From NCBI GenBank assembly GCA_951812525.1, contig OX638316.1:806001-870000 (forward strand): a stretch of 64,000 nucleotides of DNA. The letters run 5' to 3'. This stretch comes from an uncultured Poribacteria bacterium. Its GTDB lineage: Bacteria > Poribacteria > WGA-4E > WGA-3G. The notes below the pieces were generated by a model, which saw only the letters and a program-made list of their open reading frames with translations, had not been told where the DNA came from and searched no databases. Within the stretch, counting starts at the first letter, position 1. Each line of letters opens with the position of its first letter. Positions 38,573 through 40,273 of the stretch are shown one piece after another. The translations under genes and the position numbers were made by a program.

Positions 38573-38641
38573 TTCGGTAATAATATTTTTCGGTGAAGCT
38601 GTAAACCGAAAACTTGCAATAAAAACTTGTGGAGGCACAAT

Positions 38642-39655
38642 GTGATATTTCTAACACGGCTTAATGTGAGCGTCTGGGCTGCTATCCTCATGACAGCCCT
38701 TATAATTTCAGCAGCTTCAGGGGAGGAAGCAGTGACAACGCCAGATATGCTAATAGTGGGGGTGATCGCCCCAAATTTCACACTGAAAGATGAAGAAGGT
38801 GTCGAGCGGAATCTCAGCGACTACTTAGGTAAAAAGAGTGTGGTTCTCGCCTTTTATCCCAAAGATTTTACGGGTGGCTGAACAGCCGAACTCAACTCGC
38901 TCCGGGATAGTTTGAGCGAGATAGAAGCAACCGATAGTGTCCTTTTTGGCGTGAGTGTTGACAGCGTTGACTCACACAAGCGGTTTCGTGCAGAGCAAAA
39001 ATTTGGCTTCTCTTTACTGGCGGACACCGAATTCAAGGTGAGTACGCAGTACAGCGGCATCATCGAAAATTTCAATGCGTCAAAACGGACGACTTTTATC
39101 ATTGATAAAGCTGGATACATCCGCGCTATTGATAGAGAAGTTAACACAAAAACACACGGCGAAGATGTCGTCGCACTACTTAACGAGGTATTGCCGAAGA
39201 TAGCGGTTGGACAAACCGCCCCTGATTTTATTGCCGTTGACGGTAATGGCGAAACGCACCAACTTAGTGAAGTCTATCAGAACAAGAACGTTGTACTTGC
39301 GTTCTATCCGCGCGACTTTGGTCGTGGCTGAACGGCACAAGTTTGCTCGCTCCGTGATGAGTCGAGTAGTTTTGCCGAGCACAATGCTCAGATTTTTGGA
39401 ATCACTGGAAACGATGCCGATTCCCACCAGAAATTTTCCGAAGAAAATCAGTTGAATTTTCCTCTTTTAGTAGACACGAGTCGCAATCTTGCACTCCTGT
39501 ATGGCGCGACAAATGCCCCAGACGGAAGCATCAAGCGTTTAGCGATTATTATTGATAAAGAGGGAAAGATTTTGGAAATTGATAAGGAAGTCAACGCCAG
39601 TACACACGGTGCAGACTTAGTTAATTTCTTTAAAACGTTGGAAACGTCAAACTAA
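38642..39655 (+). CDS. Exported tandem-domain peroxiredoxin with two UGA-encoded selenocysteines
   Basis: A 337-residue protein read through two in-frame UGA codons (38879-38881, codon 80; 39329-39331, codon 230). Residues 1-28 look like a signal peptide. Two Bcp/AhpC-type thioredoxin-fold domains follow (about 36-180 and 185-337). In each, UGA falls where the peroxidatic Cys should be: FYPKDFTGG-U-TAEL and FYPRDFGRG-U-TAQV, compared with the usual FYPxDxTPGCT. Domain 2 has a resolving Cys five residues later (UTAQVC); domain 1 has Asn. Domain 2 also has Gly for the active-site Thr. Start: GTG at 38642 with GGAGG six bases upstream. Each UGA precedes a SECIS-like hairpin. Sec genes are not in the window, so decoding is inferred. 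Likely role: peroxide reduction outside the cytoplasm. Confidence 0.85.
38882..38920 (+). promoter_or_regulatory. Candidate bacterial SECIS element 1
   Basis: After the first UGA and a 14-base spacer, CTCGCTC (38896-38902) and GAGCGAG (38914-38920) form a perfect 7-bp stem with an 11-base loop whose second base is G. The loop begins 21 bases after the UGA. This fits the known form of bacterial SECIS elements, which lie inside the coding region just downstream of the UGA and recruit SelB. Confidence 0.75.
39332..39366 (+). promoter_or_regulatory. Candidate bacterial SECIS element 2
   Basis: After the second UGA and the same 14-base spacer, CTCGCTC (39346-39352) pairs with GAG (39359-39361) and CGAG (39363-39366), leaving one bulged T at 39362 and a six-base loop with G in second position. 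The loop again begins 21 bases after the UGA. The 3' arm differs from element 1 but still pairs. Confidence 0.7.
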
Positions 39656-39658
39656 TTG

Positions 39659-40273
39659 ATGACGCATAGGACCCTATCGACAATTACGGCACGGTTGGCA
39701 TGGTGCACCTCTGTCGTATTTAGCCCTTTTTTGGTACCAATTGCGACAGCTATCGGAGTTGTCCAAAAACATGCAGCACCTCAAGACATCCTCCGGTGGA
39801 TGGGGATCATCGTATTATTTGTTACCGTGTTACCAACCCTGTCAATAGCAATAATGGTCCGGTTTGCTAAAGTCAACGACTTACATCTGAAAAACAGAGA
39901 GGAACGGTTCCTACCGTTGTGCTGTACGCTTGTCAGTATGATTGTAGGGACCTTTCTATTGCACGAACTCGGCGCAGCACGTGAAATAGTTTGGGCAGGT
40001 GTTGCTTATATCGCAAATAGCATCGTCTTTTTCGCAATCACTCTCATGTGGAAAATTAGCTTTCACAGTGGCGTTGCCACGGGATGCGTTACCGTCCTTG
40101 TAATGCTTGTTAATCCGCAATTTGGTTGGTTATTCTTGCTGATTCCGTTGATTGCTTGGGCACGGGTTTACCGAAAACGACACACACTCCTGCAAACCGT
40201 TGTCGGTGCTGTGTTAGCCGTTGGCAACACGGCACTCGTTTTGCACTTAGCAAAACTTGGAAGCCCAACTTGA
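39659..40273 (+). CDS. PAP2-superfamily-like membrane protein
   Basis: A 204-residue protein with about five to six hydrophobic helices. ISFHSGVATG and WARVYRKRHTLLQTVVGAV resemble PAP2 phosphatase motifs 2 and 3 (PSGH-like and SRxxxxxH), while motif 1 is only loosely matched by LKNREERFLP. It may be a lipid phosphatase or a degenerate relative. It starts three bases after the selenoprotein stop, so the two are probably co-translated. The ATG at 39659 is used rather than the TTG before it. Confidence 0.55.
   Translation: MTHRTLSTITARLAWCTSVVFSPFLVPIATAIGVVQKHAAPQDILRWMGIIVLFVTVLPTLSIAIMVRFAKVNDLHLKNREERFLPLCCTLVSMIVGTFLLHELGAAREIVWAGVAYIANSIVFFAITLMWKISFHSGVATGCVTVLVMLVNPQFGWLFLLIPLIAWARVYRKRHTLLQTVVGAVLAVGNTALVLHLAKLGSPT

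Follow-up and report, generated by a model that had tools for sequence, protein, structure and literature searches.

Does a reading frame broken by two TGA codons, in the genome of an uncultured, sponge-associated Poribacteria bacterium, encode one protein in which both codons are read as selenocysteine (Sec), and what would such a protein do? We examined this in a stretch of 64 kb (the window), which is positions 806001-870000 of a single contig of 5,062,467 bases. From comparative sequence evidence, we regard it as nearly certain that the locus encodes a true double selenoprotein and as quite probable that the protein is a peroxidase; for the two taken together we put the probability at roughly 0.85.

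Gene layout and predicted product

A single forward-strand frame (38642-39655) runs from a GTG to a TAA and is interrupted just by TGA at codons 80 and 230. Its product of 337 residues has a hydrophobic N-terminal segment followed by two AhpC/TSA stretches, and the TGA codons lie in the contexts FYPKDFTGG-U-TAEL (U80) and FYPRDFGRG-U-TAQV (U230). The first-pass annotation had given this frame with the same coordinates, TGA codons, flanking residues and length, all of which were recovered unchanged, and had read it as two peroxiredoxin domains, in agreement with the PF00578 and PF08534 profiles, each of which matches in two stretches. The features of the locus are as follows.

38631-38635, forward strand: GGAGG, likely ribosome binding site, upstream of the GTG at 38642
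38642-39655, forward strand: tandem double-Sec peroxiredoxin gene (predicted), 337 codons plus TAA, GTG start
38642-38740, forward strand: putative signal peptide and short linker, codons 1-33; hydrophobic, fast-evolving, low model confidence
38741-39199, forward strand: domain 1, residues 34-186, BCP/PrxQ-like, with Sec80 (putative), N at U+5 and without a resolving Cys
38879-38881, forward strand: TGA codon 80, peroxidatic position (putative Sec)
38896-38920, forward strand: hairpin after TGA80, putative bSECIS, CTCGCTC pairing with GAGCGAG
39200-39652, forward strand: domain 2, residues 187-337, BCP/PrxQ-like, with Sec230 (putative) and Cys235 five residues on
39329-39331, forward strand: TGA codon 230, peroxidatic position (putative Sec)
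39344-39346, forward strand: codon 235 (TGC), putative resolving Cys, the sole Cys of the window protein
39345-39367, forward strand: hairpin after TGA230, putative bSECIS, GCTCGCTC, loop CGTGAT, then GAG, a bulged T and CGAGT
39656-40273, forward strand: adjacent membrane protein, weakly PAP2-like; the listed frame starts right after the stop codon

GGAGG is present within 30 nt upstream of the start in 27 of 30 genus sequences, the window copy counted, the remaining three having been cut from another start codon. The N-terminal segment is likely a signal peptide, from which export of the protein to the cell envelope would follow. A mechanical listing of open reading frames breaks the gene into three fragments (38627-38881, 38912-39331 and 39452-39655), as many as the false genes that gene callers had been expected to produce, and because the gene is cut up in this way it has likely been overlooked in annotation.

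Conservation of both TGA codons and selection on the coding region

Codon alignment of a first set of 43 tandem homologues gave TGA at both columns in 43/43, and the aligned coding regions contain no further stop. In an enlarged set the codon pair is TGA/TGA in 61 of 62 tandem genes and TCA/TGA in the other (L159); two genes with runs of N and one readable domain (L051 and L160) were dropped from this set and genomes G082 and G083 lie outside it. Across the phylum a match at E <= 1e-30 was obtained in 71 of 84 genomes. When counted from rows, the same order comprises 72 genomes, 65 with a match and 62 with a full tandem gene holding two TGAs. In six of these 62 rows an extra TAA or TAG is flagged which, by its coordinates, is the gene's own end. 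The three matching genomes without a full tandem gene have an N gap (G034), an assembly gap (G066) or a single-domain form (L062 in G038). Seven of the 72 gave no match at this threshold (G003, G004, G013, G015, G022, G067 and G073), six of them at 73-89% completeness and G073 at 96%. Outside the order, 6 of 12 genomes match, through single-domain relatives with either a single TGA or no TGA. Identity to the window protein drops to 48% among 40 aligned rows (40 of the 43 tandem genes, L027, L055 and L057 being left out for irregularities of start or end), and the double-TGA pattern is therefore old. One further subset took in 38 of the 43 genes of the first set.

A scan of named genomes found 159 stretches encoding a relative. 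Among the 80 that were kept there were 35 tandem forms, all in genomes titled Poribacteria, while the other 45, which are non-poribacterial, have the active-site block with Cys and are single-domain where parsed. Because the scan relied on two domain-1-like peptide patterns and went on with 80 of the 159 stretches, it may have passed over tandem genes in other lineages. A search of 400 sampled genomes from the phylum of a Dehalococcoidia-titled genome (G085, which holds L132) gave 0/400 at E <= 1e-48 and, having no positive-control genome, shows nothing.

In closer relatives the gene sits between a PhyH-type dioxygenase gene and the gene for the membrane protein, whose PAP2 match is weak and below the cut-off. 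Within the DNA available for 35 named poribacterial loci, the PhyH gene is present in 23 and the membrane gene in 24, the locus with the membrane gene alone ending at a contig edge. The other 11 loci, all at <=67% identity, have neither neighbour; the TGAs are therefore kept in different surroundings and, as the tested neighbours hold in closer relatives only, they supply no partner that accompanies the gene throughout the order.

The ratio of median dN to median dS, for 120 pairs among 16 of the 30 genus sequences, was 0.069 for codons 34-79, 0.079 for codons 81-229 and 0.088 for codons 231-337, as against 0.72 in the signal region. Values of 0.07-0.09 before, between and after the TGAs indicate that the protein is selected as a whole, past both stops. 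The first-pass annotation had argued that two chance errors at these codons were improbable, had proposed aligning relatives at both columns and had named frame decay as the observation that would count against its reading; both columns proved to be TGA, and not decayed, in the proportions given above. A pseudogene or a sequencing error, in which an otherwise ordinary tandem peroxiredoxin had acquired two nonsense mutations or two wrong base calls, would account for a frame interrupted by two stop codons and for the copy with a degenerate domain 1 in the related genome G080 (L159), but is refuted by a codon alignment of genes from many assemblies with TGA at both sites in 43/43 and 61/62, no stop elsewhere in the 43 and low dN/dS flanking each TGA, which leaves it a vanishingly small chance.

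Selenocysteine machinery and the meaning of UGA

The first-pass annotation had asked whether the genome holds selA, selB, selD and tRNA-Sec, and all four were found. SelA (514.7 bits) lies at 879379-880476, 9.4 kb past the window end. The tRNA-Sec (78.1 bits) has the anticodon tca, and 40 bases from it is a SelB match of 336.1 bits against a cut-off of 242.25. SelD (358.5 bits; L076, 3914052-3914975 of the same genome) has an in-frame TGA of its own (CAGUASK). Weaker SelA-family matches of 44.4 and 22.6 bits occur at 1333562 and 5059156 (L002 and L003). When the phylum was searched for tRNA-Sec with stricter filters, 70 of 81 genomes scored above the cut-off; six drafts with the double gene (G024, G030, G033, G042, G064 and G070) gave no match under these filters.

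We also considered a changed genetic code or an opal suppressor tRNA, by which UGA would be read as Cys or Trp. Cys is the residue replaced here, and decoding of UGA as Cys would yield an ordinary enzyme. However, the tRNA search gave 45 matches in the genome (150 of 238 candidates scored), and ARAGORN, run on the matched loci and the tRNA-Sec, returned 46 distinct tRNAs that cover all 20 amino acids, among which the anticodon UCA belongs to tRNA-Sec alone, Trp having CCA and Cys GCA. Moreover, 55 non-overlapping mechanical ORFs of at least 150 aa in the window end 22 times in TAG, 18 times in TAA and 15 times in TGA, so TGA is an ordinary stop here, and in two relatives (L055 and L057) the frame reaches a further TGA at the normal gene end. 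A code change was rejected on these grounds and we give it a very slim chance. Taken together, the Sec machinery, the sole UCA tRNA and the TGA-ended ORFs indicate that UGA is a normal stop that the cell can recode as Sec.

Elsewhere in this genome are three more peroxiredoxin-like frames that contain TGA, with the motifs UGNC, WUPFC and WUPNS (L014, L016 and L017 at 397819, 791146 and 2797187), and with SelD and the tandem gene they make five candidate selenoprotein genes. When the window was scanned for more Sec genes by opening TGA frames, five candidates were obtained, none of which resembled a known protein by eye.

Hairpins downstream of each TGA

Residue-normalised synonymous variability in 12-codon windows has its gene-wide minima from codon 237 (0.35) and codon 82 (0.50), with a median of 1.06. 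Fold energy was compared with synonymous resampling, in which codons were redrawn from the pooled homologues for 18 genomes of the 43-gene set with 40 draws per window; the lowest of 317 windows was at codon 231 (mean z -2.26) and the next separate peak at codon 79 (mean z -1.37). Folding is also strong in a stretch near codons 209-213 (z -1.25), which lies apart from the TGA hairpins.

The second hairpin lies 21 nt from TGA230; its stem of 8 bp contains a single bulged base and its loop is CG[T/G]GAT. Over 36 of 43 sequences, 97.2% of cells are paired and in five cells both sides have changed, values each reached by 1 of 500 shuffles. Pairs with changes on both sides number 2, a count matched in 47 of the 500 shuffles, and every shuffle reached the observed number of pair types. 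At least five of the six tested pairs form in 62/62 genes, and all six in 61. The first hairpin occurs in two forms. That of the window family (columns 18-24 with 36-42) has, in the window genus, a spacing of 21 nt, a 7-bp stem and a loop of 11 nt, or of 5 nt if two G-U pairs form, and its covariation in a mixed set was no better than in shuffles. The other form is bulged with a 6-nt loop and was found in 10/10 sequences of families f2 and f4, with three of f3 falling short; over 13 of 43 sequences (f2-f4), 92.9% of cells are paired and two pairs show changes on both sides, a level that 13 of 500 shuffles attained. One form or the other is nearly complete in 58 of 62 genes, the four failures being the three f3 TGA genes and L159.

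The passages of PMC13188914 on the bSECIS model give a loop of 3-9 nt with G in the first two loop positions, a stem of 4-16 bp and a spacing of 16-37 nt. The second hairpin agrees with this rule, as there given, in loop, stem and spacing. The first hairpin of the window genus fits the same published rule in spacing and stem, and its 11-nt loop exceeds the range unless the two G-U pairs are counted; it is the weaker and less canonical of the two.

Genome G080 has a normal copy of the gene (L161, TGA/TGA) and a second copy (L159, on G080:C108) with TCA for TGA in domain 1, the sequence of which is AFCPTDFLIGSTV. This copy has lost its domain-1 hairpin, of which 3/6 and 2/7 pairs remain by the two forms, and has retained TGA, Cys and hairpin in domain 2. 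The loss agrees with a hairpin that is tied to the TGA, as a single case in a domain that has degenerated elsewhere too.

The sequence data support a model in which SelB and tRNA-Sec would recode both UGAs, guided by the hairpin just 3' of each codon. A rival to this model is programmed partial decoding: UGA80 would mostly terminate translation, the supply of Sec would set the ratio of products, and short products, either the signal with half a domain or a form with a single Sec, would matter physiologically. Yield should fall when two recodings must follow one another, and the weakness of the first hairpin would point the same way; however, the fragment ending at codon 79 is without an active site, and segment 231-337 is as constrained as the rest, which argues that the full-length product is what is selected. 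We consider partial decoding improbable.

Family membership and proposed mechanism

By its profile matches the tandem protein is a member of the peroxiredoxin superfamily. The AhpC-TSA profile (PF00578) scores 230 bits for the whole protein against a cut-off of 26, in two stretches that represent both halves, and the Redoxin profile (PF08534) has the better of its two stretches in the second half. Equivalog models placed the protein less closely. For the BCP model NF006960 the domains alone score 92.8 and 87.0, below the cut-off of 140, and the 174.5 of the whole tandem protein exceeds it because the scores of two domains add up and for no other reason. For NF040737 (233 positions), which we take to be the model for PrxU, the selenocysteine peroxiredoxin, the whole protein scores 104.1 and the domains 61.9 and 43.8, below the cut-off of 270. 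Sequence matches to solved structures include 3drn (Bcp1, Sulfolobus) for residues 37-183 and 5epf (BcpB, Mycobacterium) for residues 189-323, among others, and both TGAs align with the peroxidatic Cys of the matched enzymes. An AlphaFold model (pLDDT 86.4, pTM 0.85) is confident except in the signal region, and its best PDB matches are the one-domain chains BCP, Bcp1, BcpB and AhpE, which cover about 155 of 337 residues.

An FYPxxF-type block precedes each U, and T81, R149 and R299 are invariant in the 40-row alignment; in peroxiredoxins such a block, with such T and R residues, fits a peroxidatic site. The position U+5 is Cys in domain 2 of 62/62 tandem genes, and this residue (C235) is the only Cys in the window protein; in E. 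coli BCP the peroxidatic and resolving Cys are likewise spaced by five residues. In domain 1 of the 62 genes the same position is C in 23, R in 13, Q in 13, N in 9, K in 3 and S in 1. By analogy, we lean towards a 2-Cys-type enzyme, its pair being Sec and Cys, for domain 2 and, in 39 of 62 genes, towards a 1-Sec type for domain 1.

A Sec-dependent redox relay, or a thiol oxidase or chaperone, could be proposed in place of a peroxidase, given the probable envelope location, C235 as sole Cys of the window protein and a domain 1 without a resolving Cys in those 39 of 62 genes. These alternatives are unlikely, as the FYPxxF-type block and the invariant T81, R149 and R299 fit a peroxidatic site and the predicted fold is nearest to BCP and AhpE.

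The double-Sec tandem peroxiredoxin proposed in the first-pass annotation has thus gained the backing of the Sec machinery, TGA conservation, dN/dS and hairpins, and for this peroxidase we envisage the following mechanism. One exported polypeptide would present two BCP/PrxQ-type domains with Sec as the attacking residue in each, and in the cell envelope, where it is presumed to reside, each Sec would attack peroxide and become a selenenic acid. In domain 2, Cys235 may resolve Sec230 as an internal selenenylsulfide, and an extracytoplasmic thioredoxin-like reductant would reopen this Sec230-Cys235 bond, as the E. coli BCP-type spacing suggests. Domain 1, because a resolving Cys is absent in the window clade and throughout the 39 of 62 genes, would act as a 1-Sec peroxidase for which an outside thiol, or else domain 2, is the reductant. 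Such a division of resolution between a Sec-Cys pair and a 1-Sec domain seems, on balance, the better guess from analogy. An intramolecular selenium relay, in which Sec80 passes its oxidation to Sec230/Cys235 via a diselenide or selenenylsulfide, is rather doubtful; if it were true, three redox residues (U, U and C) would both attack and resolve peroxides in the cell envelope.

Relation to known selenoproteins

The nearest known system, the BCP/PrxQ thiol peroxidase (NF006960), shares with the tandem protein the fold, the active-site block and, for domain 2, the spacing of five between peroxidatic and resolving residues, but differs in that the tandem protein has two domains, Sec for Cys in both (as predicted) and a likely signal peptide. 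PrxU, which was first reported from Eubacterium acidaminophilum (reference cited in passages of PMC13188914), has Sec at the peroxidatic position of a peroxiredoxin as its point of likeness, whereas the Prx in the table of that review, in the part consulted, has TxxU and one Sec. Double selenoproteins of bacteria are listed in the table passages of the same 2026 review, namely MbdU, a methyltransferase/UXPK-star protein and a HUGP/GUXX-star fusion; these resemble the present protein in having two Sec in one bacterial protein and have, to judge by name, other domains, and a tandem peroxiredoxin is absent from those passages. The Prx-like thiol:disulfide oxidoreductase in the consulted passages, with UxxC or UxxU and one or two Sec, has the AhpC-TSA fold and may also carry two Sec, but by its motif the Sec pair of the UxxU form is three residues apart, whereas the tandem protein would have one per domain, 150 apart. 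Passages of a marine survey (PMC2398784) describe the fusion of a Sec-Prx with a PP2C-type phosphatase, along with other marine fusions of Prx, which are alike in placing a Sec-Prx in a fusion and differ in that the partners are other domains and not a second Sec-Prx.

No description of a tandem double-Sec peroxiredoxin was found in the literature searched, which included few subscription papers and excluded preprints. Nor did we find literature that joins Poribacteria with a selenoprotein or peroxiredoxin, or a Sec peroxiredoxin with a sponge symbiont; the passages available from literature naming both Poribacteria and selenocysteine are not on a tandem peroxiredoxin, and the text of PMC12013277 does not mention Poribacteria, peroxiredoxin or Prx, sponge, or two or multiple Sec. 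Thus, as far as the sources searched go, the chemistry and the decoding are known and the architecture is not.

According to passages of PMC5649159, SelA and SelB co-occur in most sponge-symbiont bins of various phyla and are missing in most related references; in those passages the target protein is not named. A two-Sec peroxidase kept across a poribacterial order is a plausible Sec target in Poribacteria, and the tandem gene is a concrete candidate selenoprotein for the co-occurrence reported in that part of the source. A conserved bacterial gene with two UGAs that would be recoded serially, and with two separate hairpins, is also a small test system for the efficiency and processivity of bacterial Sec decoding, for which L159, having lost UGA and hairpin together, offers a natural control.

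History of the two domains

A tree of 98 domains places domain 1 in one group (SH-aLRT 97) and domain 2 together with L062 in another (99), and the groups join (94). The tree was built by a quick method from 36 of the 62 tandem genes and 26 single domains, on 148 columns, with SH-aLRT as the only support and a root for drawing only. The topology fits a single duplication that predates the spread of the order, with Sec kept by both copies. The single-domain form L062 (G038:C35, same order) clusters in this tree with domain 2, yet by eye its start resembles domain 1 of its relatives, as would result if the two domains had recombined and one had been lost. In a Bacteroidetes-titled genome, two BCP-like genes, each coding for a single domain with Cys and a hydrophobic N-terminus, are arranged head to tail with a 4-base overlap (L131, 2989-4082), a gene pair that is a possible parallel to the stage preceding fusion.
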